A stretch of DNA of 55,184 nt from Prevotella sp. (GTDB lineage Bacteria > Bacteroidota > Bacteroidia > Bacteroidales > Bacteroidaceae). Below, one piece after another: positions 1,761 to 37,882 of this stretch. Made by a program: the position numbers and the translations under genes. The notes under the pieces are model-generated. The model was not told the origin of the DNA and made no database searches. It saw nothing but the letters and a program-made list of their open reading frames with translations. Position 1 is the first letter of the stretch. Each line of letters starts with the position of its first letter. The stretch spans positions 1 through 55,184 of the forward strand of contig JAFVGS010000013.1 in assembly GCA_017474845.1 (NCBI GenBank), given 5' to 3'.

Positions 1761-3082
1761 TGGAAGACAAAGTAAAGATCACCAGTCTTGAACTGGAGAA
1801 TGTGAAGCGCGTCAAAGCAGTTCGGATCGAACCGACAGAGAACGGTCTGACGGTCATCGGAGGAAAGAACAACAACGGCAAGACATCCGTTCTGGATGCC
1901 ATCGTATGGACGCTGGGAGGCGACAAGAACCGTCCTTCGCAGCCAAAGCGGGAAGGATCCATGATCGATCCGCATATGAAGATCGTCCTCAACAACGGCT
2001 TCGTTGTGGAGCGTGTCGGCAAGAACAGCACACTGAAGGTCACTGATCCATCCGGAAACAAGGCAGGGCAGAAACTGCTGGATACATTCATCAGCCAGTT
2101 TGCTCTGAACATTCCGAAGTTCATGGAAGCCAATGACAAAGAGAAAGCGAACACGCTTCTGCAGATCATTGGTGTCGGTGACCAGCTGACGCAGATGGAT
2201 CAGGAAGAATTGAGATTATATAACCGGCGGACGGAGATCGGGCGCATTGCAGACCAGAAAAAGAAATATGCCGATGAACTGCCGGAATGGGACAGCGTGC
2301 CGGGTGAGATCATCTCTGCCAGTGATCTGATCGAACAGCAGCAGGAGATCCTTGCCAGAAACGGACAGAGACAGCAGTGGATCCGGGAATATGACAGGAT
2401 CCTCGATGATATCCGCAAGGCTGAAGATCGGATCGAAGAGTACAAGAAGATGATCCGTGATCAGGAAGTGCAGCTCAAGGATCTGTACGAAAAGAAGACA
2501 ACGGCACAGAAATCTCCGAAAGAACTGGAGATGGAATCGACAACAGAATTGGAAGCCAACATCCAGCAGATCGACGTGATCAATTCCAAGATCCGTCAGA
2601 ACATCGACAAGAAGCGTGCTGTGGAAGAGGCAGACGATTACAAAGGTCAGTATGACGATCTCACAGTAAAGATCAATGAGGTACGGGATGCCAGGATGAA
2701 ACTTCTGGAAGGGGCAGAGATGCCTCTTGCAGGGCTCAGCATCGATCATGGTCTGCTGATCTATAAAGGACAACAGTGGGACAACATGTCCGGATCCGAT
2801 CAGCTGAAGGTGGCTGCGTCTATCGTGCGCAAACTCAATCCGCAGTGTGGCTTCGTTCTGATGGACAAACTGGAACAGATGGATCTTGATACGCTGAAAG
2901 ACTTCGGATCTTGGCTGGAGAAGGAAAACCTGCAGGTGATCGCCACCAGAGTGAGCACTGGAGACGAATGCACGATCTACATCGAAGACGGATATTCCAT
3001 CGATAAGAACGGTCAGAAGACTGCTGCAGTAAAAGAAGAAAAGGCTCCTGCCCAGAAATGGACATGGAACGGAGGTAAATAA
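1760..3082 (+). CDS. SMC/RecF-like AAA ATPase with coiled coil
   Basis: 440 residues. Walker A is GGKNNNGKTS at 34-43, preceded by the strand-rich LELENVKRVKAVRI start typical of RecF/Rad50-like ATPases. Residues about 150-300 form a charged coiled coil, and the second ATPase half has a signature-like SGSDQLKVA (344-352) and a Walker-B-like FVLMDKLEQ (365-373), where the usual DE pair is replaced by DKLE. It is shorter than SbcC or Rad50 and has no hook cysteines. It begins the recombination cluster with Sak4 and DUF669 and is coupled on both sides by one-base overlaps (TAATG). It probably acts on DNA ends or supports strand annealing; the exact role is unknown. Confidence 0.8.
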   Translation: MEDKVKITSLELENVKRVKAVRIEPTENGLTVIGGKNNNGKTSVLDAIVWTLGGDKNRPSQPKREGSMIDPHMKIVLNNGFVVERVGKNSTLKVTDPSGNKAGQKLLDTFISQFALNIPKFMEANDKEKANTLLQIIGVGDQLTQMDQEELRLYNRRTEIGRIADQKKKYADELPEWDSVPGEIISASDLIEQQQEILARNGQRQQWIREYDRILDDIRKAEDRIEEYKKMIRDQEVQLKDLYEKKTTAQKSPKELEMESTTELEANIQQIDVINSKIRQNIDKKRAVEEADDYKGQYDDLTVKINEVRDARMKLLEGAEMPLAGLSIDHGLLIYKGQQWDNMSGSDQLKVAASIVRKLNPQCGFVLMDKLEQMDLDTLKDFGSWLEKENLQVIATRVSTGDECTIYIEDGYSIDKNGQKTAAVKEEKAPAQKWTWNGGK

Positions 3083-4209
3083 TGGCATTTGAGATAAAAA
3101 AGGGAATGATCCGGAAAGCAATCCGGGTCGTGGTATACGGACCTGAGGGAATCGGAAAAAGCACATTTGCTTCCCAGTTTCCCGGAGCAGTGTTCATCGA
3201 CACAGAAGGATCTACCAACCAGATGGATGTCGCTCGTTTTCCTGCACCAACATCATGGGAGATGCTTCTGCAGGAAGTAGAACAGGTAATCAAGGAGCCA
3301 ACAAGTGTCGGCACACTGGTTATCGATACAGTGGATTGGGCACAGGCAAAATGTGTCGAATCAGTATGTGCGAAGTACAAGGCAGACGGTATCGAAGCGT
3401 TCGGTTATGGCAAAGGCTACAGCTATGTCTATGAAGAGTTCGGAAAGCTGCTGAATCTGCTGAATGATGTCATTGATAAAGGAACCAACGTTGTCCTGAT
3501 CGCTCATTCGGCAATCCGTACATTCACAAAGCCAGATGAGATGGGACAGTACGACCGGTACGAATTGAAGCTGATCAGTACGCCAAAGTGTTCGATCACC
3601 GGATTGGTGAAGGAATGGTCGGATCTGCTGCTGTTTGCAAACTATGAGACTTTCATCACGGAAGACTCGAAAACAAAGAAGAAATATGCGACTGGGAATC
3701 GTCGTGTTATGTATACCGAGCACACTGCTGCCTATGATGCAAAGAACCGTTTCGGAATGCCTTCCAAACTGGATTTCGATTACAAAGAGATCTCCCGGTT
3801 GTTTACTTCTACAGAAAACGAGCAGAAAGTGAAAGATCTGTTTGGAGCAGAGAATGTCGAGATCATCAGGGAAGATCCCAAGCCGAAAGAAGAACCGGCT
3901 GAGAAGCCTGTTTCTGAGCCCGTACAGGAGAAAGAATTCTCCGGCAGTGTGAATTACGTCTATAAACCCGAGCCATACACACCGGAAGAGGAAGCACTCC
4001 TGAAACGGATTCCAAAAGCGCTGGCAGATCTGATGCGTGCAGATACGGTCCATCCGAAAGAGATCATGGAAGTAGTCGGAGAGCAGGGACACTGGCCTTC
4101 CGATATGCCGATTGACCAGTACAGCCCGGACTATTATTTAGGATTCCTGATTCCGAACTGGAGTCTGGTATTCAATTCCATTGCTGAGAAAAGATCATTG
4201 CCATTCTAA
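3082..4209 (+). CDS. Sak4-like RecA-fold recombination ATPase
   Basis: 375 residues. Walker A is GPEGIGKS (20-27) and Walker B is LVIDT (79-83); the VLIAHSAIRTF segment matches the switch region of phage Sak4-type single-strand annealing ATPases (AAA_24). The core ends near 265; an acidic, proline-rich linker (KPKEEPAEKPVSEPVQ) then joins a C-terminal region of about 90 residues I cannot assign, making it longer than typical Sak4. Its neighbour is a DUF669 ssDNA-binding protein, the known partner arrangement for Sak4 recombinases. Likely role: phage homologous recombination and replication restart. Confidence 0.85.
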   Translation: MAFEIKKGMIRKAIRVVVYGPEGIGKSTFASQFPGAVFIDTEGSTNQMDVARFPAPTSWEMLLQEVEQVIKEPTSVGTLVIDTVDWAQAKCVESVCAKYKADGIEAFGYGKGYSYVYEEFGKLLNLLNDVIDKGTNVVLIAHSAIRTFTKPDEMGQYDRYELKLISTPKCSITGLVKEWSDLLLFANYETFITEDSKTKKKYATGNRRVMYTEHTAAYDAKNRFGMPSKLDFDYKEISRLFTSTENEQKVKDLFGAENVEIIREDPKPKEEPAEKPVSEPVQEKEFSGSVNYVYKPEPYTPEEEALLKRIPKALADLMRADTVHPKEIMEVVGEQGHWPSDMPIDQYSPDYYLGFLIPNWSLVFNSIAEKRSLPF

Positions 4210-4223
4210 GGAGGAAAAGAAAA

Positions 4224-4760
4224 ATGGAAACAAATAACTACAATGCATACGTTCAGGAAGAAGGCGGAGAATTACAGGACGGTTATACGATCAGCGCCGA
4301 TCAGCTTGGCGATTATGACCGCTCATACACACTTCTGCCTGAAGGCGATTATGAGTTTACAGTCGTGAATCTTGAAGTCGCTAGATATCAGCCGGGGCCA
4401 GATTCGAAAATTGGCGGCGCTTGCAAGCAGATCATTCTCACCCTTCGTGTGAATAATCCGGAAGATGGATCCAGCGTAGATCTTCGCCACAATCTGTATA
4501 TGTGGAATTCAAAAGCATGCGTTGGGATGATCGCACAGTTCTACGATTCCATTGGCACCCACAAGAAAGGTGCACCGCTTCGTTTTGACTGGAGAAAAGA
4601 AGTCATTATCGGGAAAACCGGTAAGCTGCAGTTAAATCACCGGCCAGACAAAAAAGATCCTTCCAAGGTATACAACAACATCAAGAAATTATATTCAAAA
4701 GAAGAAACGGCATCCGATAACAACAGTGCCGGAAACAATAACTGGGGCTGGAGGAAATAA
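4224..4760 (+). CDS. DUF669 single-stranded-DNA-binding protein
   Basis: 178 residues matching the DUF669 pattern: LPEGDYEFTVVNLE near 38-51, a beta-barrel-like core, and an Asn-rich flexible tail ending in NNNWGWRK. DUF669 proteins sit beside Sak4 or RecT recombinases and are thought to coat ssDNA as phage SSBs; the disordered aromatic C-terminus resembles the protein-recruiting tip of SSB. AAGGAGG precedes the start. The stop overlaps the helicase start (TAATG). Confidence 0.8.
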   Translation: METNNYNAYVQEEGGELQDGYTISADQLGDYDRSYTLLPEGDYEFTVVNLEVARYQPGPDSKIGGACKQIILTLRVNNPEDGSSVDLRHNLYMWNSKACVGMIAQFYDSIGTHKKGAPLRFDWRKEVIIGKTGKLQLNHRPDKKDPSKVYNNIKKLYSKEETASDNNSAGNNNWGWRK

Positions 4761-6349
4761 TGGAACTGCGTCCTTATCAGGAGGCAGCCAGAACAGCAGT
4801 TGAACAGGAATGGGCCAGCGGAAAGAAAAAAACACTGCTGGTCCTTCCTACAGGAACGGGGAAAACGGTCGTATTCTCAAAGATCGCAGAGGACCGTGTC
4901 AGAAAAGGAGATCGTGTCCTGATCATGGCACATCGAGGAGAATTGTTGGATCAGGCAGCAGATAAGCTGCACAGGATGACAGGACTGATGTGCTCAGTGG
5001 AGAAGGCAGAGCAGAGTTGTCTTGGATCCTGGAACAGAGTGACGGTAGGATCCGTACAGAGTCTGCAGCGAGAGAACCGCCTGAATAAGTTTGATCCGGG
5101 ATACTTTTCGACAATCATAGTCGATGAAGCCCATCACGCCATCACAGACGGCTATCGAAGAGTGATCGATCATTTTCCCGATGCAAATGTTCTTGGTGTC
5201 ACAGCGACGCCGGATCGAGGCGATATGCAGCATCTCGGTCAGGTGTTTGATTCTCTGGCCTATGAGTATTCGATCGTTCAGGCGATCCGGGAAGGGTATC
5301 TTTGCAAAATCATGGCACAGACGATTCCACTGGAAATTGACATGAGCAGTCTGAAAACACAGGCTGGCGACTATACTCTTGGATCTATCGATAATGCATT
5401 GGATCCATATCTGGAACAGATCGCCTCCGAAATGGAGAATTACTGCAAAGACAGAAAGACTGTTGTTTTCCTGCCGTTGATCGCCACATCACAGAAATTC
5501 AAACAGATCCTGAATGATCACGGATTCCGAGCTGCCGAAGTAAACGGACAGTCAGATGATCGTGAACAGGTTCTGAAAGATTTTGCGGAAGGCAAATATA
5601 ACGTTATCTGTAACTCGATGCTGCTGACAGAAGGGTGGGATTGTCCGGATGTTGACTGCATCATCATATTACGTCCTACGAAGGTCAGAAGCCTGTACTG
5701 CCAGATGGTAGGAAGAGGGACAAGACTTTCTCCGGGGAAGGATCATCTGCTTCTCCTGGACTTCCTGTGGCTCTCTGAACGGCATGAATTATGCCGGCCT
5801 GCAGATATTATCTGCAGCAAGAAAGAAGTCGCAGAACGTATGACACAGAACCTGTCAGAGATGGATGGGCCAATGGATATCGAAGAAGCTGAAGAGCAGG
5901 CAGAATCCGATGTGCTGCAGGAACGTGAGAACGCTCTTGCAGAACAGTTGGCAGCCATGCGCAAACGTAAACGTACACTGGTAGATCCACTGCAGTTCGA
6001 AATGTCTATCCAGGCGGATGATCTGGCCTATTACCAGCCGACATTCGCATGGGAAATGGGAATGGTCACAGACAAACAAAGAGGCGCTCTGGAGCGCTTT
6101 GGAGTGTGTCCTGACGATGTGGAAAACTGTGGAAAGGCATCACTGCTTCTGGATCGGCTGATGAAGCGTGCGACAGAAGGACTGTCCACACCAAAGCAGA
6201 TCCGGAAACTGGAGTCATATGGCTTTATAAGAGTAGGCACATGGAGCAAGGAAGATGCCTCCGACATGATGTCACGTATAGCTTTCAATGGATGGAGAGT
6301 TCCCTTTGACATCGATCCAGGAACGTATGTTCCGGGAGGTGCTGCATGA
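4760..6349 (+). CDS. SF2 DEAD/DEAH-box helicase
   Basis: 529 residues with a complete superfamily-2 motif set: Walker A LPTGTGKT (29-36), motif II VDEAHH (121-126), motif III VTATP (147-151) and motif VI QMVGRGTR (315-322). Residues 330-529 form a helical extension with RKRKRT near 406-411, found in phage UvsW/RadD-like helicases. It probably remodels branched DNA during replication or recombination rather than serving as the main fork helicase. It is coupled to DUF669 upstream and overlaps the primase-helicase start (ATGA). Confidence 0.88.
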   Translation: MELRPYQEAARTAVEQEWASGKKKTLLVLPTGTGKTVVFSKIAEDRVRKGDRVLIMAHRGELLDQAADKLHRMTGLMCSVEKAEQSCLGSWNRVTVGSVQSLQRENRLNKFDPGYFSTIIVDEAHHAITDGYRRVIDHFPDANVLGVTATPDRGDMQHLGQVFDSLAYEYSIVQAIREGYLCKIMAQTIPLEIDMSSLKTQAGDYTLGSIDNALDPYLEQIASEMENYCKDRKTVVFLPLIATSQKFKQILNDHGFRAAEVNGQSDDREQVLKDFAEGKYNVICNSMLLTEGWDCPDVDCIIILRPTKVRSLYCQMVGRGTRLSPGKDHLLLLDFLWLSERHELCRPADIICSKKEVAERMTQNLSEMDGPMDIEEAEEQAESDVLQERENALAEQLAAMRKRKRTLVDPLQFEMSIQADDLAYYQPTFAWEMGMVTDKQRGALERFGVCPDDVENCGKASLLLDRLMKRATEGLSTPKQIRKLESYGFIRVGTWSKEDASDMMSRIAFNGWRVPFDIDPGTYVPGGAA

Positions 6350-8379
6350 ATGAAGAAATCAAAGAAGCCCTTGCATATATAGATCCAACAACATTGGATT
6401 ATCAGGAGTGGCTGAATGTAGGAATGGCAATTAAGGAAGCCGGCGGGTCATGCAATCTGTGGGATGAATGGTCCCGCCGGGATCCTGCCCGTTATGACGG
6501 CGGATGCTGGGCAAAGTGGGGATCATTCACAAAGACTGGCATAACAGAAAAGACTCTGTTCAAGATGGCTATCGAGAGAGGATACCGTTCCTCTTCTTAT
6601 TCGGATTCCAGAGGACGCGAACTGATGGATGGAGAGATCCTGAATGTTGATGAACATTATCGGGTGATCGACCAGGATATGATCGATTCCAAAACGGTTC
6701 CCGAACCGGTCAGATGGGATCCTCTGGAGGACATACGGAGATATCTGTCTGTATTATTCGCACCGAATGATCATGTCAGTTACTGTGTGGACTGTTATCA
6801 GGACAAAGACGGTAAATGGCATCCGAAAGGACGAGTCTATGACCGAACCGCAGGCAGATTGTTGGAAGAACTGGACAGCGCAAACGATGTTGAAGATGTC
6901 TTCTACAGCTACAACCATGAATGCGGTGTCTGGGTGAGTTTCAATCCGATGGATGGAAACGGCGGAAAAATCGACAACGTAACGGACTTTAAATACACGC
7001 TTATCGAAAGTGATACACAGGATATCGAAGTCCAATATGCTCTTATGACGAAACTGGAGCTGCCAATCGCTGCCCTGGTACATTCCGGAAATAAATCGAT
7101 TCATGCCATCGTGAGGATCGAGGCAGGAAACGAAAAAGAGTATGCCAGGCGCGTTGATTACCTGTTCAAGGTATGCAAAAAGAACGGGCTGGACGTGGAT
7201 ACATCCACAAAGAATCCAAGCCGTCTGTCCCGTATGCCGGGTTTCTGGCGCGGTAGCAGAAAGCAATATCTGATTGCTACGAATATCGGAAAGGAATCCT
7301 GGAATGAATGGGTGGAATACATCGAATCAATAAATGATGATCTGCCGGATCCGGAGGACTTCAACGATATTTGGGAAGATCTTCCTGAACTGGCTCCAGA
7401 GCTGATTCAGGGTGTACTTCGGAAGGGGCACAAGATGCTTTTATCCGGCGGATCCAAGACAGGTAAGTCAATGCTGATGATCCAGCTGGCTATTGCCATC
7501 GCATCCGGTGGGCATTGGTTGAACCGATATTGTGAGCAGGGAAAGGTCCTGTATGTAAATCTTGAAATCGACAGTTCTTCTTTTGCAAGGCGTATCGCCG
7601 CTGCCTGTAAGCAGCGCGGGATCACACCGGATAAGATCAATCACAATCTTCGTGTGTGGAACATGAGAGGACATAGCACACAGCTGGACAAGCTGACTCC
7701 GAAGTTGATCCGAAGATGCGAAAAAGAGAACTTTACAGCCATCATCATCGATCCGATTTACAAGGTCATGATGGGTGATGAGAACAAAGCTGGTGACATG
7801 GCTCAGTTCTGCAACCAGTTTGATGCCATTGCCACTAAGCTGAACTGCGCAGTGATCTACGTACATCATTTCAGTAAAGGAGAACAGGGCAAGAAGGCTA
7901 GTATTGACCGCGCATCCGGTTCCGGTGTATTTGCCAGAGATCCGGATACCATCGCCACAGTTACAAAGCTGTACAACGTACGCGGCACATATCCAGCTGT
8001 ACGTGTGGAGTTCACACTGCGAGAGTTCCCTGAACTGAAACCAATCGATGCCTGGTACCAGTATCCGATCCATGTTGTAGATACTGACGGCGATCTGAAG
8101 GAAGCTACAGTCGAAGAAAAGAAGAAGAAAACTCATGAGGAAAATCTTCAGGACTTCGTTGACAATTTGGAAATTGCCTTTGAAAACCTTTGTGATGATG
8201 AGGATGGAAATCCGCGGGAAGTGCCGCAGCCGGAGCTGATCGAGTATATGGATATGGAAAGGACAGCATTCACACGCTGGTACAAAGAGGCAAAAGACCA
8301 AGGTCTGACGAACATAAGAAAACGTGCTGCAGATAAGAAAATCGGTAGCACCGCAACCTTCTATAGACGGTGTGACTGA
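6346..8379 (+). CDS. Primase-helicase fusion (AEP primase + RepA-like ATPase)
   Basis: 677 residues with three parts. Residues 1-80 (DYQEWLNVGMAIKEAGG; LWDEWSRRDP) match a PriCT-type domain, here at the N-terminus. Residues about 125-310 look like an archaeo-eukaryotic-type primase: acidic ESD (221-223), the HSGNKSIHAIVRI histidine motif (246-258) and an S/T-N-PSRLSRMPG segment (287-299). Residues 350-560 are a RecA-fold helicase with Walker A GGSKTGKS (368-375), Walker B AIIIDP (465-470) and YVHHFSKG (505-512). The gene ends inside the iteron array at 8367-8626, so it is the natural candidate for the initiator that opens that origin. GGAGGTG precedes the start. Confidence 0.85.
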   Translation: MNEEIKEALAYIDPTTLDYQEWLNVGMAIKEAGGSCNLWDEWSRRDPARYDGGCWAKWGSFTKTGITEKTLFKMAIERGYRSSSYSDSRGRELMDGEILNVDEHYRVIDQDMIDSKTVPEPVRWDPLEDIRRYLSVLFAPNDHVSYCVDCYQDKDGKWHPKGRVYDRTAGRLLEELDSANDVEDVFYSYNHECGVWVSFNPMDGNGGKIDNVTDFKYTLIESDTQDIEVQYALMTKLELPIAALVHSGNKSIHAIVRIEAGNEKEYARRVDYLFKVCKKNGLDVDTSTKNPSRLSRMPGFWRGSRKQYLIATNIGKESWNEWVEYIESINDDLPDPEDFNDIWEDLPELAPELIQGVLRKGHKMLLSGGSKTGKSMLMIQLAIAIASGGHWLNRYCEQGKVLYVNLEIDSSSFARRIAAACKQRGITPDKINHNLRVWNMRGHSTQLDKLTPKLIRRCEKENFTAIIIDPIYKVMMGDENKAGDMAQFCNQFDAIATKLNCAVIYVHHFSKGEQGKKASIDRASGSGVFARDPDTIATVTKLYNVRGTYPAVRVEFTLREFPELKPIDAWYQYPIHVVDTDGDLKEATVEEKKKKTHEENLQDFVDNLEIAFENLCDDEDGNPREVPQPELIEYMDMERTAFTRWYKEAKDQGLTNIRKRAADKKIGSTATFYRRCD

Positions 8380-8626
8380 CGGTGTGCACTTAAGCAAACA
8401 CGGTGTGCAGTACGGTGTGCAGGCGATTTGCACACCGAGACCGATACGGTGTGCATGTGGTGTGCATAGTGCACACCGTGCGGTGTGCGGTACGGTGTGC
8501 AGGCGATTTGCACACCGGGCTTCACGGTGTGGTGTGCAGTCTCTCTAAAGAGAGTTATCACACACACGCATACACACACCATGTTAGAACGTCTCACTGA
8601 CGTTCGTTCTAACTACGGTGTATGCA
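8367..8626. repeat. Iteron array, probable replication origin
   Basis: ACGGTGTGCA occurs exactly at 8379, 8400, 8412, 8446 and 8492 on the plus strand and at 8470-8479 on the minus strand. Nine-of-ten matches on the minus strand lie at 8429-8437 and 8509-8517, and diverged copies at 8367, 8457, 8480, 8524, 8529 and 8615. A 37-base block (8401-8437) recurs with one mismatch at 8481-8517, exactly 80 bases away; each block contains a CGGTGTGCA-N7-TGCACACCG palindrome. A CA-rich stretch (8558-8580) follows. The array starts in the last codons of the primase-helicase, as in phages whose origin lies in or beside the initiator gene. The region is otherwise non-coding. Confidence 0.8.
8583..8613 (+). 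other. Bulged hairpin at the right edge of the iteron array
   Basis: GTTAGAACGTC (8583-8593) pairs with GACGTTC and TAAC (8599-8613) around a TCACT loop, leaving one 4-base GTTC bulge; the inner 7 base pairs GAACGTC/GACGTTC are perfect. It could be a single-strand initiation signal or a transcript structure; there is no T run, so it is not a terminator. Confidence 0.5.
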
Positions 8627-8671
8627 GTGTCGGTCCTGATCAACAGCAATCAAAAAAGCAAAGGAGACACA

Positions 8672-9070
8672 ATGATCAGATTTACAATTCCAATCGATCC
8701 TCCGACAGTGACCTTCCAGGACAAGTGTCTCGGGATCCGATACGGGAAACCATACATGTACGAATCGCCCAAGCTGAAAGATGCCAAAGCGATGATCCGC
8801 GCTCATGTCGGAAAGTACAAACCGGCTGAGCCGATGAAAGGTCCGATCAAGTTATCCGTGTACTGGGTCTTCCGGTACACGAAGGCATCAAAAGAACAGT
8901 GGATGGTACGGAAGCCGGATCTGGACAATCTGAACAAGATGCTGCAGGACGTGATGCAGGATCTGCAGTTCTTCGAGGATGACTCACAGATCGTCATCCT
9001 GCAGGCGGCAAAGACCAGATTCAAGAATCCATGTATCTCAGTGGAACTGATGGAGCTGAAAGACATATGA
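8672..9070 (+). CDS. rusA: RusA-family Holliday junction resolvase
   Basis: 132 residues from ATG 8672, chosen because AAGGAG lies 5 bases upstream; an upstream in-frame ATG at 8618 lies in the origin edge and has no ribosome site. The RusA signature is clear: KPDLDNLNKMLQD (81-93) with the catalytic aspartates D83 and D85, and FFEDDSQI (100-107) with D103/D104. It resolves Holliday junctions and branched intermediates made by the Sak4/DUF669 pathway before packaging. The stop overlaps the next start (ATGA). Confidence 0.9.
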   Translation: MIRFTIPIDPPTVTFQDKCLGIRYGKPYMYESPKLKDAKAMIRAHVGKYKPAEPMKGPIKLSVYWVFRYTKASKEQWMVRKPDLDNLNKMLQDVMQDLQFFEDDSQIVILQAAKTRFKNPCISVELMELKDI

Positions 9071-10488: not shown

Positions 10489-10755
10489 ATGAGAGAATAC
10501 ATTGACCGCCAGACGCTGCTGGCAAGAGCTGCCACTGTTCCAACAGAAGAGCGGAACTGGGCGACAGCGATCGAACTGATCGAGAACATCCCGCAGACGG
10601 ATGTGGCCAGACAGATCGATGGCATCATCTGCGAAAAGGATATGATCGACAAAGAGATGCGCTACTGGCACAAAAAGGCAGAGCGCTATGAGAATACCAT
10701 TCTGAGACTTGCGGTCCTTATGGCGCAGGGAGGTGATACAGATGCCGATGACTAA
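10489..10755 (+). CDS. Hypothetical 88-residue protein
   Basis: Begins MREYIDRQTLLARA and contains IELIENIPQTDV (about 28-39), so its first 40 residues follow the same M-R-x-I-D...P-x-x-D layout as the genes at 9547 and 10149; the rest (KDMIDKEMRYWHKKAERYENTI, shown only in part) is a charged helix. GAGGAG precedes the start. Function unknown. The stop lies 14 bases inside the next gene. Confidence 0.62.
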   Translation: MREYIDRQTLLARAATVPTEERNWATAIELIENIPQTDVARQIDGIICEKDMIDKEMRYWHKKAERYENTILRLAVLMAQGGDTDADD

Positions 10756-10978
10756 ACCGGGCAAAACACTGGGCACACCAGTCAAAGCGGACATGATCCG
10801 CACCCAGTTAAAGAGCGAGGGACAGACAGTGGCGGGATTCGCCAGAGAGATCAACTACAGCCGGCAGGCAGTCCAGGGCGCACTGGCAAAGGGCAGAATG
10901 TCCAAGACCATGATCGCACTGGTCGCCGAAGCGCTGCACAAACGCCCGGAGGATATTCTGGCAGGGGGTGCGCAGTAA
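10742..10978 (+). CDS. Cro/CI-like HTH protein
   Basis: 78 residues from ATG 10742, chosen for the GGAGGTG 7 bases upstream. Residues about 15-72 form a helix-turn-helix (TVAGFAREINYSRQAVQGAL then MIALVAEALHKRPEDIL). This is a third small HTH regulator, placed late in the early operon; it may tune early-to-late timing. The stop overlaps the next start (TAATG). Confidence 0.7.
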   Translation: MPMTKPGKTLGTPVKADMIRTQLKSEGQTVAGFAREINYSRQAVQGALAKGRMSKTMIALVAEALHKRPEDILAGGAQ

Positions 10979-14507: not shown

Positions 14508-15671
14508 ATGGGATTGATTGAAAAACTGTTCCCGAAAAGCCACGAGCGCGTCCCGGCGGGGCAGTACTTCCGGCTGATCACCGGATACGCTCCGGTGTAC
14601 AGAAGCTGGGACGGTCAGCTGTACGAGTCGGAACTGGTCCGCTCGGCAATTGACGCACGCTCACGGCACATCATGAAACTGGATGTCCGGATCGATGGAT
14701 CCGCGCAGCCAAAACTGCAGACGAGGCTGGTGAAGAGGCCAAACGACTTCCAGACGTGGGGGCAGTTCCTCTACAGACTGAACACGATCCTGGACATGAA
14801 GAACAACGCTTTCATTTTGCCAGCATATGACAGACTGGGAGACATCAGCGGAGTCACGACCGTCTACACAGACCACTATGAACTGCTGGACGTAAACGGC
14901 ACGCCATGGCTGCGAATGTACTTTGATCATGGAAGACATACTGCCGAAGAACTGAGCCGGGTCGGCATCATGACGAAGTTTCAGTTCAAGAGCGATCTGT
15001 TCGGTGAAAGCAACACCGCACTGACGGACACCATGAGCCTCATAGATCTGCAGACGCAGGGCATCTCTGAGGCCGTGAAGAACTCGTCGAGCTATAAGTT
15101 CATCGCAAAACTTACAAATTTTCTTAACTCGGAGGACCTGAAAAAGGAACGCATCAGGTTCAGCGAGGACAACCTGAAGGCCGGCAACGACGGACTGCTG
15201 CTGTTCCCGAACACTTACACGGACATTCAGCAGATCACACCGCAGCAGTACACAGTGGACGCTGACCAGATGAAGCTGATCCAAACGAACGTCTTCAATT
15301 ACTTCGGGGTGAATGAGAAAGTGCTGCAGAACTCCGCAATGGGCGACGAACTGGATGCCTTTTTCAATGGGGCGATCGAACCCTTCAGCATTCAGTTGAG
15401 CGAAGTATTGACGAAGATGCTGTTCTCACCGTCTGAGCAGGCACACGGCTCCAGAGTTTACGCAACAGCCAACCGGCTGCAGTACATGCCGACAGCGCAG
15501 AAGATCAGCATGGCGCAGCAGCTGGGCGACAGAGGCATGATCATGATTGACGAGGTCAGAGCACTGTTCAACTATCCGCCGCTGCCGGATGGACTGGGAC
15601 AGCAGGCACCGATCCGCGGCGAGTTCTACATGGTAGGCGACGAGAAGGGAGACACCAATGGCACAGAATAG
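14508..15671 (+). CDS. Portal protein (HK97 family)
   Basis: 387 residues from ATG 14508, with GGAGGG upstream. The sequence has the HK97-portal hallmarks: an N-terminal LVRSAIDARSRHIMKLD helix (about 44-60), PNDFQTWGQFLYRL, a central stem region near NYFGVNEKVLQNS and a conserved end DEVRALFNYPPL. Twelve subunits form the ring through which TerL pumps DNA. It starts 5 bases after terL and its last 14 bases overlap the capsid gene. Confidence 0.92.
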   Translation: MGLIEKLFPKSHERVPAGQYFRLITGYAPVYRSWDGQLYESELVRSAIDARSRHIMKLDVRIDGSAQPKLQTRLVKRPNDFQTWGQFLYRLNTILDMKNNAFILPAYDRLGDISGVTTVYTDHYELLDVNGTPWLRMYFDHGRHTAEELSRVGIMTKFQFKSDLFGESNTALTDTMSLIDLQTQGISEAVKNSSSYKFIAKLTNFLNSEDLKKERIRFSEDNLKAGNDGLLLFPNTYTDIQQITPQQYTVDADQMKLIQTNVFNYFGVNEKVLQNSAMGDELDAFFNGAIEPFSIQLSEVLTKMLFSPSEQAHGSRVYATANRLQYMPTAQKISMAQQLGDRGMIMIDEVRALFNYPPLPDGLGQQAPIRGEFYMVGDEKGDTNGTE

Positions 15672-17289
15672 AGAATACCGGTCCTTTGCAGAAGTAAGAG
15701 AAGCCGGTGACGAGTACCGCGTCGAGGGTTATGCCTCGACATTTGAACCTTATGAAATGTGCGAGATCGAAGGCGAGAAGTACTTCGAGCGCATTGAACC
15801 GACAGCATTCGATGAATGCGATATGTCGGACGTGGTCCTGAGAGTTGACCACGCAGGGGCTGTATATGCCCGTACATCGGCAGGAACCTTGACCGTCAAT
15901 GTGGACGCTCATGGTCTGCATACAGAGGCTGATCTGTCACGCACAGCGAACTCTAGAGCGCTGTATGACGACATTAAGGCCGGAAACTATCCCCAGATGT
16001 CATTCTGCTTCGTAGTTCCAGAAGGAGGCGATCATTTCGACGAGAAGAGTCGCACCAGAATCGTCTCCAAGGTAAGTAAGCTCTTTGACGTCTCGCCGGT
16101 TTCTTTCCCGGCGAACCCGACCACCGAACTGCATGCCCGGGCTTTGGAGTATTTCAACGGAGAGATTGAGAAACTCAAGGCGGAGCGACCTGAAGAAGCC
16201 GAAGCACCGCAGGAAGTGATCGAGGAGAGGATTGAACAGGAAGAAACAGCCGAAACATCAATTGTCGAACCGGAAGCAGAAGAGCGTGCAGTAGAGACAG
16301 CCGAAGAGTCCGCCAAAGAGGCAGAGGACCGCAAGGCTGCCGAGTTTGCTGAATACCGTGCTCTGCAGCAGAAGGTTGCTGACGGTGTGATCGGCAAAGT
16401 GGTCGAAAGCCACAGAGAGGAGATCATCATGGAAGAAAAGAAATACACACCTGACACACAGGAATACAGAGATGCGTTCTATGCAGTCATCGGCGACTAC
16501 GCAACAGCAGAACAGCGTGCGATCGTAGTCGACAGCACAGCACCGGGCGATGGTGACGCCATTGCCATCCCGAAGACACTGGACGAGAAGATCTGGGACA
16601 ACATCCACACAGCACACCCGATCCTGGCTGACATTGCTACAGTCCGCTCCGGCGTCGCTATGGAAGTCACAAAGCACACAACAATCACTGTCCGTACTAC
16701 CAAGAAACTCGACAGCGCAGCTACTCCGGCAGAAGAAGCAAACACATTCGTCAAGGTCGTACTGTATGGCAACGACTATGAGAAGTATGTCACTCTGACA
16801 TATGCAGAAGCTAAGATGTCCCAGGGCGCTCTGGAAGACTATCTCGCTGAAGAAATCTCTGCTGAACTCGGTGAAGCACTGGCAAAGGATGTCTTCGCTC
16901 AGATTCTTACTGATGCTGGTAATGGCCAGAAAGTCACTCCGGCAGAAGGCTCTGATCTGTTCGAGAACGTTAAAGCAGCGCTTGCGCTGGCTACAGGCGC
17001 ATCCCGCCCGGTCATCTATGCGCCGGCTTCTTCCTACTACAACATCATCGCCGCAATTAAGAGCGGCAATCCGTTCAACATCGGAAACGCTCTGGGTGCA
17101 GAGGTCAAACTGGACAACGCTGCCACAAAGGTAACGATCGTTGACCCGAAGAAGTTCGTTCTGAACGAAGTTCAGCCTGTCATGATCGAATCTGACAGAG
17201 ACATCAAGGCACACAAGGTTGTTGTATCCGGTTATCTCCGTGCACAGGGCACACTGAGACACAACAAGGCTGCGGCATACATTAATTAA
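15658..17289 (+). CDS. Fused prohead protease - major capsid protein
   Basis: 543 residues joining two proteins that are normally separate. Residues 1-165 are an HK97-type prohead protease (EYRVEGYASTF; probable catalytic H65 in RVDHAG and S115 in PQMSF). Residues about 165-257 are a Glu-rich coiled coil acting as the scaffold (delta) region. Residues 258-543 are an HK97-fold major capsid protein (AIAIPKTLDEKIWD; TLTYAEAKMSQGALEDY; LRAQGTLRHNKAAAYI). AGGGAG precedes the start. An internal ATG with an excellent ribosome site at codon 258 could also make capsid protein alone. Confidence 0.92.
   Translation: MAQNREYRSFAEVREAGDEYRVEGYASTFEPYEMCEIEGEKYFERIEPTAFDECDMSDVVLRVDHAGAVYARTSAGTLTVNVDAHGLHTEADLSRTANSRALYDDIKAGNYPQMSFCFVVPEGGDHFDEKSRTRIVSKVSKLFDVSPVSFPANPTTELHARALEYFNGEIEKLKAERPEEAEAPQEVIEERIEQEETAETSIVEPEAEERAVETAEESAKEAEDRKAAEFAEYRALQQKVADGVIGKVVESHREEIIMEEKKYTPDTQEYRDAFYAVIGDYATAEQRAIVVDSTAPGDGDAIAIPKTLDEKIWDNIHTAHPILADIATVRSGVAMEVTKHTTITVRTTKKLDSAATPAEEANTFVKVVLYGNDYEKYVTLTYAEAKMSQGALEDYLAEEISAELGEALAKDVFAQILTDAGNGQKVTPAEGSDLFENVKAALALATGASRPVIYAPASSYYNIIAAIKSGNPFNIGNALGAEVKLDNAATKVTIVDPKKFVLNEVQPVMIESDRDIKAHKVVVSGYLRAQGTLRHNKAAAYIN
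16429..17289 (+). CDS. Nested major capsid protein from an internal start
   Basis: In-frame ATG at 16429-16431 preceded by GAGAGGAG (16415-16422) with a 6-base gap, exactly at the scaffold/capsid boundary. It would give a 286-residue stand-alone capsid protein starting MEEKKYTPDTQEY, the usual length of an HK97 shell domain. This parallels the nested lambda C/Nu3 arrangement, although here the nested product is the shell protein. Predicted from sequence only. Confidence 0.6.
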   Translation: MEEKKYTPDTQEYRDAFYAVIGDYATAEQRAIVVDSTAPGDGDAIAIPKTLDEKIWDNIHTAHPILADIATVRSGVAMEVTKHTTITVRTTKKLDSAATPAEEANTFVKVVLYGNDYEKYVTLTYAEAKMSQGALEDYLAEEISAELGEALAKDVFAQILTDAGNGQKVTPAEGSDLFENVKAALALATGASRPVIYAPASSYYNIIAAIKSGNPFNIGNALGAEVKLDNAATKVTIVDPKKFVLNEVQPVMIESDRDIKAHKVVVSGYLRAQGTLRHNKAAAYIN

Positions 17290-17644: not shown

Positions 17645-17955
17645 TGGACCGCTCCGAAGTGATCACACTGATCGCCCAGAACTTCACACAGGATTCGCTG
17701 AACGTGCCGCGTGAACTCTCGACCACAGAGCGGGATGTCTTCGCTCAGGTCCAGAATGTCACCGGGTTGGAATGGTTCGAGGGAGGCAGAAACGGCCTCA
17801 ATCCGGAGTATCGGTTCACCATGTTCAAATATGACTATGACGGTGAGCAGATCGTCCGCTATAAGGACGTGGAATACTCGGTCTACAGGACATACGAGCG
17901 CCGCACGGATGAAATCGAACTGTACTGCGAGAAACGGAAGGGGGCACAGCGTTAG
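17644..17955 (+). CDS. Head closure / head-tail joining protein
   Basis: 103 residues, beta-rich (FEGGRNGLNPEYRFTMFKYDYDGEQIV region) with the Phage_H_T_join-like pattern YRTYERRTDEIELYCEKRKG at the end. This SPP1 gp16-like ring seals the filled head before tail attachment. Translation is coupled to the connector gene. Family assignment rests on pattern and position. Confidence 0.7.
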   Translation: MDRSEVITLIAQNFTQDSLNVPRELSTTERDVFAQVQNVTGLEWFEGGRNGLNPEYRFTMFKYDYDGEQIVRYKDVEYSVYRTYERRTDEIELYCEKRKGAQR

Positions 17956-24427: not shown

Positions 24428-25404
24428 TGTCTGAATATAATTTCCACTTTGATTGGAACAAGATTTCCACCCTCGGCAAAGTCCGTATCTTGGTTGAGCA
24501 GGTTGTCGGCAGTCCTTCACAGGCACAGATCAGTCAGGCGGTAGCGGACTACATCGATTCGCATCCGGGTGCACTGAGCCCACTGTCACAGGCAACTAAG
24601 TCAGCCCTGCTCGATATCGCTGAGCATGTGGCTTACATCGATGCCAACGGTCAGTCCTACTACAATGCACTGAGTGCGGCGCTGAATGCGAAGGCGCTGT
24701 TGAGCATCACTGCGGTTTATACGCAGACGATGACCGTCATTGCATCGGACAGCCTCGACATTCTGAAGGATGACCTTGTTGTCACGGGCTACTACGATGA
24801 TGGCACAAGCGCACCGATTGATGACTACACGCTGAGCGGAACGCTCACAGCAGGAACGAGCACTATCACGGCAGAGTATAGCGGCATGACCGCATCATTC
24901 GATGTGACGGTATCAAGCGCCTTGTATAAACTTCCTGTCGTTCCAGAGACCACGGTTACAAGCAGCGGACGGACGGCGACCGTCTCAGTATCTGCCGACG
25001 GTCTGATTACCTATTCCGGTGCTATCCGTGACGGTATTTACATCAAACCAGACGGAACGGTAACAGCAACGCAACCACAAGGGACAACGTGGTGGTCAGC
25101 AACAGCAGGCGACAATATCGACTGGAATATTCATGATATTACTTGGACAGCAGGGAGCGGAAGCAGTCAGAGTCAGGACTTTAAATGGGCAAATGCGGAT
25201 GCATCAGGGAACCTGATGACCATTTCTCACGCAGTCGCATCTGGCAGTAGCGGAACGGATGGGGAAGTCATCAAAAACTATCCGAGTTACGGAAACAGCA
25301 GAAACTATAGTGCTTTATGTTTCCAGTGGACGAACAATCCGTCGGAAGGTGGAACGGTATCATTCCGCATTGAGGTAAACGTAAACGGAGCGAAGTATTT
25401 CTGA
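24427..25404 (+). CDS. Tail-tip fibre protein with Ig-like domain
   Basis: 325 residues. A helical N-terminus (1-88, with the recurrent phage motif LLDIAEHVAYIDANGQSYYNAL) is followed by a bacterial Ig-like domain (about 92-165; LKDDLVVTGYYDDGTSAPI) and a Ser/Thr/Gly-rich C-terminal region (170-325) that probably binds the host surface. Its position after Tal and the low sequence complexity fit a receptor-binding or adhesion fibre. It is coupled to the next gene by TGATG. Confidence 0.7.
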   Translation: MSEYNFHFDWNKISTLGKVRILVEQVVGSPSQAQISQAVADYIDSHPGALSPLSQATKSALLDIAEHVAYIDANGQSYYNALSAALNAKALLSITAVYTQTMTVIASDSLDILKDDLVVTGYYDDGTSAPIDDYTLSGTLTAGTSTITAEYSGMTASFDVTVSSALYKLPVVPETTVTSSGRTATVSVSADGLITYSGAIRDGIYIKPDGTVTATQPQGTTWWSATAGDNIDWNIHDITWTAGSGSSQSQDFKWANADASGNLMTISHAVASGSSGTDGEVIKNYPSYGNSRNYSALCFQWTNNPSEGGTVSFRIEVNVNGAKYF

Positions 25405-26267
25405 TGATTTACGATGTCAACGGGAACGCACTGACGGACGCCTACGATGTCAACGGCAACGCATTAGCACAGGCGTACGACATCAACGGGAATCCGCTTA
25501 TGGATTTAACGCTGAAGGTCATGACCTACAATGTCGGTCAGTGGTATATCGGAAACGGTTCGGTCGTTCCGTCTGCTAAGGATGCGCAGTATTATGCTTT
25601 GCAGAATGCCATTATTGGCGGTCAAGATGCGGACATTGTTACTATGCAGGAATATACGAAGCAGTTCAGCGGAACAGGCAGAACAGCCAAGTCACTGCTT
25701 GAACAGTATTATCCGTATGTACATGAGGAAAGCGGAACCAGTAACTATTTCGGGAGAGCCATCGCATCAAAGTATCCTATTGCATCGTATACGGCAAATG
25801 TCTATGCGGATGATGCAAACGGCAGATATTACGACATGGCTGTCATTCAGATCGGTAGCAGACAGATTGATGTAATAGTCACACATCTGCATCCAAGTGA
25901 CCAGAGCGAGAAGATCAGAACCGCAAAGATTCTGTTTGACTACGCTCAGACATTGCCGAATCCGTATATCATCGGCGGCGATTTTAACAGCACACTGAAA
26001 GACCCATTTTCGACAGTCAACGCGGCGATTTACGACCAGTTTTTAAACGCAGGCGACACCATTGCAAACGATGGCGCATTTGGCATTCTGCCGACCGCAT
26101 GCAACAGCGACAACTGGGCAGCGGAATCATTCGCTATTGACAATATCATCTGCGCAGAAGGAATTACGATTGATGCAGTCTGGACTGACCAGACGAAACT
26201 GACGGATTCTATACAGGAAGGCAAAATCGACCATATTCCATTGATAGCGGAGGTGACAATATCATGA
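25404..26267 (+). CDS. Tail-linked DNase I-like (EEP) nuclease with YDVNGN repeats
   Basis: 287 residues. Three 11-residue repeats YDVNGNAL, YDVNGNAL and YDINGNPL (3-10, 14-21, 25-32) precede a complete endonuclease/exonuclease/phosphatase fold: N43 in MTYNVG, E83 in MQEY, H161 in THLHP, D193 and N195 in GGDFNS, D246 and N247 in AIDNI, and D276-H277 in IDHIPLI. All expected catalytic positions are intact. The repeats look like a tail-anchoring or assembly segment. It sits among tail-tip genes; it may act on DNA at entry or on a surface phosphoester, which cannot be told here. The second copy has a 3-residue insertion after Y134. Confidence 0.82.
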   Translation: MIYDVNGNALTDAYDVNGNALAQAYDINGNPLMDLTLKVMTYNVGQWYIGNGSVVPSAKDAQYYALQNAIIGGQDADIVTMQEYTKQFSGTGRTAKSLLEQYYPYVHEESGTSNYFGRAIASKYPIASYTANVYADDANGRYYDMAVIQIGSRQIDVIVTHLHPSDQSEKIRTAKILFDYAQTLPNPYIIGGDFNSTLKDPFSTVNAAIYDQFLNAGDTIANDGAFGILPTACNSDNWAAESFAIDNIICAEGITIDAVWTDQTKLTDSIQEGKIDHIPLIAEVTIS

Positions 26268-29432: not shown

Positions 29433-29663
29433 TCAGGATTCTCCAAAGAGATACCGCCTTAGGTCGTCCGGATCGGCATTAACCATCTGGCAGAAGTGCA
29501 TCAATTGGCTGGCAGACATTCCATTCTGCCCAACCTCCCAGTAATGAACCGCAACCTTTGACACCCCAAAGCGATCGGCAACCTGTTGCAGGGTCAGCCC
29601 GGCTCTAGTGCGCCTCTCAGTAAGCCATTCCCCGATCTTTTTGTTCATCATTTCGTCTTTCAT
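29433..29663 (-). CDS. Cro/CI-type HTH repressor (second copy)
   Basis: Identical protein to 177-407: a minimal 76-residue XRE helix-turn-helix lysogeny repressor. Here its downstream partner integrase is complete, confirming the repressor-integrase operon. Confidence 0.85.
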   Translation of the reverse strand: MKDEMMNKKIGEWLTERRTRAGLTLQQVADRFGVSKVAVHYWEVGQNGMSASQLMHFCQMVNADPDDLRRYLFGES

Positions 29664-35605: not shown

Positions 35606-37635
35606 ATGAAGAAATCAAAGAAGCCCTTGCATATATAGATCCAACAACATTGGATTATCAGGAGTGGCTGAATGTAGGAATGGCAATTAAGGAAGCCGGC
35701 GGGTCATGCAATCTGTGGGATGAATGGTCCCGCCGGGATCCTGCCCGTTATGACGGCGGATGCTGGGCAAAGTGGGGATCATTCACAAAGACTGGCATAA
35801 CAGAAAAGACTCTGTTCAAGATGGCTATCGAGAGAGGATACCGTTCCTCTTCTTATTCGGATTCCAGAGGACGCGAACTGATGGATGGAGAGATCCTGAA
35901 TGTTGATGAACATTATCGGGTGATCGACCAGGATATGATCGATTCCAAAACGGTTCCCGAACCGGTCAGATGGGATCCTCTGGAGGACATACGGAGATAT
36001 CTGTCTGTATTATTCGCACCGAATGATCATGTCAGTTACTGTGTGGACTGTTATCAGGACAAAGACGGTAAATGGCATCCGAAAGGACGAGTCTATGACC
36101 GAACCGCAGGCAGATTGTTGGAAGAACTGGACAGCGCAAACGATGTTGAAGATGTCTTCTACAGCTACAACCATGAATGCGGTGTCTGGGTGAGTTTCAA
36201 TCCGATGGATGGAAACGGCGGAAAAATCGACAACGTAACGGACTTTAAATACACGCTTATCGAAAGTGATACACAGGATATCGAAGTCCAATATGCTCTT
36301 ATGACGAAACTGGAGCTGCCAATCGCTGCCCTGGTACATTCCGGAAATAAATCGATTCATGCCATCGTGAGGATCGAGGCAGGAAACGAAAAAGAGTATG
36401 CCAGGCGCGTTGATTACCTGTTCAAGGTATGCAAAAAGAACGGGCTGGACGTGGATACATCCACAAAGAATCCAAGCCGTCTGTCCCGTATGCCGGGTTT
36501 CTGGCGCGGTAGCAGAAAGCAATATCTGATTGCTACGAATATCGGAAAGGAATCCTGGAATGAATGGGTGGAATACATCGAATCAATAAATGATGATCTG
36601 CCGGATCCGGAGGACTTCAACGATATTTGGGAAGATCTTCCTGAACTGGCTCCAGAGCTGATTCAGGGTGTACTTCGGAAGGGGCACAAGATGCTTTTAT
36701 CCGGCGGATCCAAGACAGGTAAGTCAATGCTGATGATCCAGCTGGCTATTGCCATCGCATCCGGTGGGCATTGGTTGAACCGATATTGTGAGCAGGGAAA
36801 GGTCCTGTATGTAAATCTTGAAATCGACAGTTCTTCTTTTGCAAGGCGTATCGCCGCTGCCTGTAAGCAGCGCGGGATCACACCGGATAAGATCAATCAC
36901 AATCTTCGTGTGTGGAACATGAGAGGACATAGCACACAGCTGGACAAGCTGACTCCGAAGTTGATCCGAAGATGCGAAAAAGAGAACTTTACAGCCATCA
37001 TCATCGATCCGATTTACAAGGTCATGATGGGTGATGAGAACAAAGCTGGTGACATGGCTCAGTTCTGCAACCAGTTTGATGCCATTGCCACTAAGCTGAA
37101 CTGCGCAGTGATCTACGTACATCATTTCAGTAAAGGAGAACAGGGCAAGAAGGCTAGTATTGACCGCGCATCCGGTTCCGGTGTATTTGCCAGAGATCCG
37201 GATACCATCGCCACAGTTACAAAGCTGTACAACGTACGCGGCACATATCCAGCTGTACGTGTGGAGTTCACACTGCGAGAGTTCCCTGAACTGAAACCAA
37301 TCGATGCCTGGTACCAGTATCCGATCCATGTTGTAGATACTGACGGCGATCTGAAGGAAGCTACAGTCGAAGAAAAGAAGAAGAAAACTCATGAGGAAAA
37401 TCTTCAGGACTTCGTTGACAATTTGGAAATTGCCTTTGAAAACCTTTGTGATGATGAGGATGGAAATCCGCGGGAAGTGCCGCAGCCGGAGCTGATCGAG
37501 TATATGGATATGGAAAGGACAGCATTCACACGCTGGTACAAAGAGGCAAAAGACCAAGGTCTGACGAACATAAGAAAACGTGCTGCAGATAAGAAAATCG
37601 GTAGCACCGCAACCTTCTATAGACGGTGTGACTGA
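35602..37635 (+). CDS. Primase-helicase fusion (second copy)
   Basis: Same 677-residue AEP primase plus RepA-like helicase as at 6346-8379; its end again runs into the iteron array. Confidence 0.85.
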   Translation: MNEEIKEALAYIDPTTLDYQEWLNVGMAIKEAGGSCNLWDEWSRRDPARYDGGCWAKWGSFTKTGITEKTLFKMAIERGYRSSSYSDSRGRELMDGEILNVDEHYRVIDQDMIDSKTVPEPVRWDPLEDIRRYLSVLFAPNDHVSYCVDCYQDKDGKWHPKGRVYDRTAGRLLEELDSANDVEDVFYSYNHECGVWVSFNPMDGNGGKIDNVTDFKYTLIESDTQDIEVQYALMTKLELPIAALVHSGNKSIHAIVRIEAGNEKEYARRVDYLFKVCKKNGLDVDTSTKNPSRLSRMPGFWRGSRKQYLIATNIGKESWNEWVEYIESINDDLPDPEDFNDIWEDLPELAPELIQGVLRKGHKMLLSGGSKTGKSMLMIQLAIAIASGGHWLNRYCEQGKVLYVNLEIDSSSFARRIAAACKQRGITPDKINHNLRVWNMRGHSTQLDKLTPKLIRRCEKENFTAIIIDPIYKVMMGDENKAGDMAQFCNQFDAIATKLNCAVIYVHHFSKGEQGKKASIDRASGSGVFARDPDTIATVTKLYNVRGTYPAVRVEFTLREFPELKPIDAWYQYPIHVVDTDGDLKEATVEEKKKKTHEENLQDFVDNLEIAFENLCDDEDGNPREVPQPELIEYMDMERTAFTRWYKEAKDQGLTNIRKRAADKKIGSTATFYRRCD

Positions 37636-37882
37636 CGGTGTGCACTTAAGCAAACACGGTGTGCAGTACGGTGTGCAGGCGATTTGCACACCGAGACCGA
37701 TACGGTGTGCATGTGGTGTGCATAGTGCACACCGTGCGGTGTGCGGTACGGTGTGCAGGCGATTTGCACACCGGGCTTCACGGTGTGGTGTGCAGTCTCT
37801 CTAAAGAGAGTTATCACACACACGCATACACACACCATGTTAGAACGTCTCACTGACGTTCGTTCTAACTACGGTGTATGCA
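37623..37882. repeat. Iteron array, probable replication origin (second copy)
   Basis: Same ACGGTGTGCA array as at 8367-8626. The 37-base blocks are at 37657-37693 and 37737-37773, and the bulged hairpin is at 37839-37869. Confidence 0.8.

Follow-up and report, generated by a model that had tools for sequence, protein, structure and literature searches.

A dense array of short repeats in both orientations, situated at the 3′ end of a phage primase-helicase gene, is very probably the replication origin of that phage, with the primase-helicase encoded upstream serving as the initiator that would read the repeats through its C-terminal domain. Comparison of relatives demonstrates the place of the array, its co-variation with this domain, a correspondence between protein residues and repeat bases, and the joint exchange of domain and array. 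The repeat varies greatly between phages, and the relatives' sequences indicate that it goes with the C-terminal helix-turn-helix domain rather than with the core of the protein.

The phage unit, its array and the primase-helicase

The window, the whole stretch of 55,184 bases that was analysed (contig JAFVGS010000013.1 of an assembly assigned to Prevotella sp.), comprises a 29,256-base unit repeated 1.89 times in tandem, and bacterial flanking DNA was not observed. The copies differ by a single mismatch (position 1323) up to a point close to the contig end, where they lose register. The window carries integrase, repressor-like, terminase, portal and capsid genes. Among 59 other genomes of the genus of the assembly there was one primase match, weak, confined to the helicase part and 25% identical, and the nearest primase-helicase relatives (among the best 80 of 512 genome-contig matches) are those of Solobacterium and Bulleidia. 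Possibly the contig is a phage, circular or concatemeric, that was misassigned to this host during binning. An Rfam scan of the first unit and a tRNA scan gave no matches. Elsewhere in the unit, a prohead protease and an HK97-type major capsid protein share one 543-residue reading frame (15658-17289), and the frame at 25404-26267, which has no PHROG match, combines YDVNGNAL-like repeats with a following endonuclease/exonuclease/phosphatase-like domain recognised by eye.

Table 1. The array, its blocks and the neighbouring features, in positions of the window
Feature	Position	Strand	Description or basis
Sak4-like annealing protein and small phrog_2698 protein	3082..4760	+	phrog_2698 at the same place in phage FP_Lugh is annotated SSB
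ResIII/DEAD-type helicase, replication module	4760..6349	+	family matches
Primase-helicase, 677 aa	6346..8379	+	PriCT_2, primase-like middle, RepA-like helicase, C-terminal helix-turn-helix
Stretch coding for the C-terminal domain, putative iteron reader	8146..8376	+	tail profile match; co-variation in relatives
Codons of the presumed recognition helix, ERTAFTRWYKEAK	8257..8295	+	placed by alignment only
Iteron array, putative replication origin	8367..8538	none	ACGGTGTGCA copies, both orientations
First 37-base block	8401..8437	+	9-base inverted repeat 8413-8421/8429-8437, 7-base centre
Second 37-base block	8481..8517	+	9-base inverted repeat 8493-8501/8509-8517, 7-base centre
Hairpin between array and next gene, candidate priming site	8565..8630	+	inner stem 8583-8591/8605-8613
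RusA-type resolvase gene	8672..9070	+	start codon picked by eye; the listed ORF starts at 8618
Second, identical array copy	37623..37794	none	tandem repeat of the contig

Six exact copies of ACGGTGTGCA are found in the array, 8 when one mismatch is allowed and 13 when two are, which is close to the about 14 copies in both orientations counted in an earlier, sequence-only reading. The same reading had described two 37-base blocks 80 bases apart, each with a 9-base palindrome around a 7-base centre, and an array start within the end of the primase-helicase gene. The blocks were found at these coordinates, with 97% identity and a spacing of exactly 80 bases, and the last 13 bases of the gene (stop codon 8377-8379) indeed overlap the array. 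All exact copies in the unit fall within the array, and elsewhere in the unit matches with at most one mismatch occur only at 17840 and 28802. Over the whole window, 19 such matches compare with 3.7 expected, a number that none of 100 shuffles reached. The repeated 8-mer score of 172-base windows of the unit is highest at 8371 (135), whereas the best score outside the array is 12. The recurrence of the array in the second half of the window is due to the tandem repeat. Many short repeats at one place in the replicon, a feature of iteron-type origins, are therefore present in the window. The AT-rich unwinding element usual for such origins is absent from it (best stretch 15 of 20 A/T), so the array is described as working like an iteron origin.

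The earlier view of an origin-like array without a separate initiator is supported: the array is apparently read by the primase-helicase itself, and family scans recognised no separate initiator gene among the 22 scanned of the 44 translated ORFs. The GC skew of the unit, suggested as a check, was uninformative: it increases almost uniformly and does not change direction at the array, in a unit with almost all large genes on one strand.

In the primase-helicase, PriCT_2 (aa 5-75, E 7.3e-19, Pfam) precedes the primase-like region, which is followed by the RepA-like helicase (AAA_25, aa 347-513, Pfam). A match to phrog_2597 ('DNA primase') spans aa 3-542, and RSF1010 RepA was the sole sequence match at E ≤0.01 in a profile search against the PDB (E 4.5e-8). 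No Pfam model, that of archaeo-eukaryotic primases (AEP) included, matched the primase-like middle. With E221, D223, H253 and D285, which are invariant among 50 relatives, this region nevertheless fits an AEP in its residue pattern; the assignment of these residues to the AEP catalytic motifs is tentative. Distant matches in phages of Mycobacterium, Gordonia, Yersinia and others mostly cover the helicase part alone, and plasmid matches occur too.

The last ~75 residues are variable among relatives. A profile of 66 relatives' tails, from which the window and the loci L003, L005 and L091 were excluded, was compared with 401 ORFs and matched the window tail at E 1.1e-7, the next best match being at 0.0029. 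Judged by this match, the window tail belongs to the C-terminal domain family of the relatives. The models HTH_17 and HTH_11 match 20 and 19 of 70 tails, respectively (E ≤0.05), and the domains form 41 clusters among 130 loci at the cut used. A D-x-D/N-x-G-like loop was seen by eye in the tails of L058, L077, L097, L108 and L140, and at most 5 of 70 tails are matched by EF-hand models; the loop ahead of the helix-turn-helix in some tails is possibly metal-binding. Matches of the tail profile in the PDB to EF-hand proteins and a transposase were discarded as weak.

Place of the array and co-variation with the protein

Relatives comprised 8 viral-contig loci, the best 80 of at least 573 viral-contig relatives and the best 80 of 512 genome-contig relatives, the last mostly from Firmicutes. 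From 169 loci with a primase match, 15 that were incomplete or had fewer than 300 bases downstream and 9 duplicates were removed, leaving 145 including the window. Repeated 8-mers were then counted in a 300-base window starting shortly before the stop codon, and the count was compared with those of the other windows of the same locus. Among the matches listed, the strongest repeat cluster lies directly after the primase-helicase gene in 124 of 145 loci, window included, and the stretch just after the gene is in the top 5% of repeat windows in 136 of 145. Relatives that keep the primase and lack iterons, which the earlier reading had named as evidence against an origin, were thus mostly not encountered. 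Nine of the 21 exceptions were inspected by eye: the array lies further downstream, behind an apparent inserted small gene, in L047, L063, L050 and L155; weaker repeats occupy the usual place in L087, L095, L138 and L141; and L006 has no clear array.

In a second set of 50 independent loci, the strongest repeat cluster is right after the gene in 49 (among the matches listed). Ten named phages, picked from 215 matching records, show the repeat peak after the gene in 9 cases, the exception being Castelnaud with a score of 11 against 13 elsewhere; at least two of them, EFC-1 and BCJA1c, are apparently also among the viral contigs. In all ten, a RusA or resolvase gene follows the primase-helicase gene, directly or beyond at least one small gene. 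Repeat arrays also occur at partition, packaging and recombination sites, and the array could in principle be one of these. This is extremely unlikely given that the array follows the primase-helicase gene in relatives, that no partition protein was found among the scanned ORFs and that the terminase gene is 4 kb distant.

Co-variation between protein and repeat was analysed in the 130 of 145 loci passing the array score, 108 after thinning at 90% core identity; since the score was required for entry, these tests contain no loci that lack a clear array. Without correction, the rank-based partial correlation with the repeat was 0.359 for the C-terminal domain given the core and 0.085 for the core given the C-terminal domain. 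However, dinucleotide-shuffled arrays still yield 0.256, so these values are partly an effect of composition, and figures are used in which the shuffled expectation was subtracted from the repeat similarity. As linear partial correlations, the corrected values are 0.381 for the C-terminal domain when the core is controlled for (0 of 1000 permutations) and 0.026 for the core when the C-terminal domain is controlled for (239 of 1000). Given the C-terminal domain, the separate parts reach -0.014 (PriCT_2), 0.019 (primase-like) and 0.024 (helicase). The earlier suggestion that the primase-helicase itself binds the iterons is thus supported by the co-variation in relatives, while its assignment of this role to the N-terminal region, where PriCT_2 lies, is not. 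A corrected rank version is weak, with 0.084 for the C-terminal domain (10 of 1000), 0.108 for the core (7 of 1000) and 0.15 for the helicase part.

The signal resides in pairs of loci with alike C-terminal domains. For pairs at 80-90% core identity, the corrected repeat similarity is 0.004 when the domains are unlike (32 pairs) versus 0.248 when they are alike (76 pairs). Furthermore, 80% of the 113 strongly repeat-sharing pairs have alike domains, against a base rate of 8%, whereas 19 of the 113 have differing domains (similarity <0.3). The likeness of domains and arrays is partly one of shared ancestry.

Phage repressors bind repeated sites, and this phage encodes other helix-turn-helix proteins (29433-29663 and 10709-10978), so the repeats might instead be the sites of a phage repressor or activator. 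We consider such an operator very improbable: neither regulator adjoins the array, 13 sites in 172 bases exceed a usual operator, and in relatives the repeats sit at the 3′ end of the primase-helicase gene and track the C-terminal domain of that very protein.

The presumed recognition helix and the exchange of domain and array

In relatives, the repeat can be predicted from two positions of the presumed recognition helix. The helix pattern [K/R]-T-[V/I]-R-x was scored on the 145 loci and the 10 named phages, with counts that ignore ancestry. GGGACA outnumbers GGGAAA in 9 of 9 loci whose helix reads K-T-V/I-R-R and in 0 of 22 that have another K-T-V/I-R-x helix. The K..N helix is accompanied by at least three GGGAAA in 15 of 18 loci, the exceptions (L128, L073 and Castelnaud) having a different tail type, and the R..D helix by at least two GCGGCG/GCGGGG in 19 of 21, the exceptions (L047 and L063) having a displaced array. 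The R..N helix shows clear GTGAAA/ATGAAA in 5 of 8 loci, not in L114, L130 and L169. In addition, the Asn of N-T-[V/I/A]-[K/R] occurs in 6 of 8 loci with GTCAAA versus 4 of 100 others, and spans four C-terminal clusters. An unguided scan for specificity positions gave 0.217 and 0.216 for the helix columns, below the 95% family-wise limit of 0.223.

The rules were recorded before 230 further loci were fetched (at most the best 80 each of at least 581, 185 and 379 relatives). Removal of 88 loci whose array start was identical to one of the first set, 27 duplicates and 10 short or cut loci left 105, of which 50 were counted as independent by an 80%-over-120-bases rule with identical array starts removed, a filter that differed from the pre-recorded rule on tail identity. 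Among the matches listed, predictions were right in 59 of the 63 covered new loci (GGGACA 20/20, GCGG 20/20, GGGAAA 13/15, RTGAAA 5/6, GTCAAA 1/2) and in 24 of the 25 independent covered loci (9/9, 7/7, 5/5, 2/3 and 1/1 in the same order). The remaining 42 of 105 new loci, or 25 of 50 independent ones, fall under no rule and were left unscored. GGGAAA is the commonest also in 9 of 90 new loci without the matching helix; the other classes are rarely so.

A close pair, L104 and L110, has cores 88.6% identical and differs in the helix (R versus N) as well as elsewhere in the tail. The array of L104 holds 8 GGACA and 2 GGAAA, that of L110 0 and 13, respectively. Downstream of the array the two loci hardly differ, in the hairpin as well. 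The window helix, ERTAFTRW, fits no rule, and a helix-repeat match in the window is therefore put forward by analogy.

Some near relatives have, to judge from their alignments, swapped domain and array together, with the break in the linker. Identity is lost at one point in the linker both in L148/L040 (core 98% identical in protein, 91% in DNA) and in L157/L149 (97% and 90%); beyond it, the similarity of the tail, the array, the hairpin and the stretch that follows does not exceed that of unrelated DNA. The exchanged part includes the hairpin and reaches into the gene behind it. In the opposite situation, of alike domains on cores less than 74% identical, 32 pairs have similar repeats (mean cosine 0.47, raw, without composition correction).

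Since domain and array are adjacent, they might merely be co-inherited neighbours, with something else binding the repeats. Consistent with such linkage, alike-domain pairs without a shared 11-mer have a repeat similarity of 0.149 (36 pairs), compared with 0.404 for all alike pairs (240). Yet 0.149 is still above the 0.038 of unlike domains without a shared 11-mer (raw composition), one helix residue tracks one base change across many array copies, and the rules held on new arrays that cannot be aligned to the first set. The helix Asn, moreover, accompanies GTCAAA across the boundaries of the clusters. Mere co-inheritance is accordingly very unlikely, and direct reading of the repeats by the domain is the preferred explanation.

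Origin-like surroundings, proposed mechanism and known systems

The DNA beside the array resembles origin parts in many relatives. A stretch of 20 bases with at least 18 A/T lies beside the array in 82 of 130 loci versus 93 of 1111 control windows, and a hairpin of at least 8 pairs (one mismatch allowed) at +90 to +360 in 109 of 130 versus 156 of 1111. The hairpin lies outside the iterons in 89 of 130 loci, and some of the 109 are built from iterons. In the window, the DNA fold z is -4.1 for 8540-8665 and -3.3 for 8565-8630. GTCGTGC or GTTGTGC is present in the stem of 23 of the 89 hairpins, beside differing iterons and in 6 C-terminal clusters, in loci that include L024, L042, L051, L069, L137 and L153. 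Over 76 loci the hairpin tracks the core when the C-terminal domain is controlled for (0.340, 0 of 2000 permutations, raw composition), but does not track the C-terminal domain when the core is controlled for (0.069, 252 of 2000). The idea that the core sets the hairpin was dropped, because the statistic carries no composition correction and the hairpin also differs in both swaps with near-identical cores.

Iteron initiators often self-regulate, and the array touches the end of the gene, so that the domain could bind it mainly for control of its own gene or copy number, with replication starting elsewhere. This is unlikely: the array lies at the 3′ end of the gene, the unit has no second array, and the AT-rich stretches and hairpins of relatives look like parts of an origin.

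In the preferred reading, in which the array is the origin, the last ~75 residues would fold into a helix-turn-helix domain, and each iteron of ~9 bases would be read by its recognition helix. Many iterons in both orientations would gather several primase-helicase molecules, so that the RepA-like helicase part could assemble and load; the strands would open beside the array, and the primase-like part would synthesise the initial primer, for which the hairpin downstream of the array is a possible site. We infer that the protein physically binds the array, that the helicase is loaded, that the strands open, that priming occurs at the hairpin and that replication starts at the array. The hairpin may be a priming site by its likeness to those of RSF1010, as described in the passages covered of PMC4234260.

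In domain order the protein resembles InversePrim of the PrimPol-PV1 supergroup, in which PriCT-1 is followed by the primase and then a RepA-family helicase; the InversePrim elements analysed in PMC5862659 were all prophages, mostly of Firmicutes, with a His in primase motif II (from the passages of that paper covered here). The window protein shares the PriCT domain ahead of its primase-like region, the RepA-family helicase after it, the prophage setting and relatives in Firmicutes. However, the paper names PriCT-1, whereas Pfam gives PriCT_2 for the window protein, and its passages covered here describe no C-terminal reading domain, iterons or origin. Outside this one paper the name InversePrim was not met in the open-licence literature searched. 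Nor was a report of an origin for the family seen in that literature.

The principle of a self-read origin is already known from P4 alpha and pRN1 (PMC4234260) and SaPI Rep/Cch2 (PMC7581432), and that of exchange from PLE (PMC8263062), as the covered passages of these papers describe them. Such an origin appears to be new for the InversePrim family, as do its numerous specificities and readable code. On balance we think it rather likely that in InversePrim phages of Firmicutes origin specificity is set by a two-position helix code, which would lie in an exchangeable C-terminal domain moving together with its array on a conserved core. The protein alone would then suffice to deduce the origin sequence of many such prophages, and origin conflicts may drive the turnover. 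The results thus point to a likely origin and initiator for a large group of Firmicutes prophages (the stretches fetched for the 10 named phages are annotated with CDS features only, no origin) and suggest that a single protein with a RepA-type helicase unites all initiator functions and has a residue-to-base recognition code.

SaPI Rep and SCCmec Cch2 recognise, by a C-terminal domain as is proposed here, iterons directly downstream of their own gene, but have DUF927 and D5-like helicases (PMC7581432), whereas the window protein is AAA_25/RSF1010 RepA-like. P4 alpha unites primase, helicase and a winged-helix domain binding origin repeats in one protein, as is proposed for the window protein, and is set apart by its description as having a TOPRIM-type primase (PMC4234260). 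The helicase of the window protein is of AAA_25/RecA type and of none of the families of the SaPI Rep/P4 alpha type (SF3, D5-like, DUF927); it is therefore said to work like these initiators and not to be a member of their group. The pRN1 protein ORF904 combines an AEP primase, a helicase and a C-terminal winged helix with an origin just 3′ of its gene and a stem-loop, but its helicase is of SF3 type, iterons are lacking and the stem-loop is the required element there (PMC4234260). RSF1010 offers the same set of functions, a RepA-type helicase, a primase, an iteron reader and hairpin priming sites, divided over the three proteins RepA, RepB' and RepC as opposed to one here, where hairpin priming is a conjecture (PMC4234260). 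Finally, in the PLE satellites of Vibrio a DNA-binding domain varies together with an iteron origin, and the two are exchanged as one module. There the domain is an N-terminal RepA_N of two types among five PLEs, in contrast to the C-terminal domain and its many clusters described above (PMC8263062). If reader and origin are exchanged together, related phages could in this way avoid a common origin, as shown for these satellites (PMC8263062).
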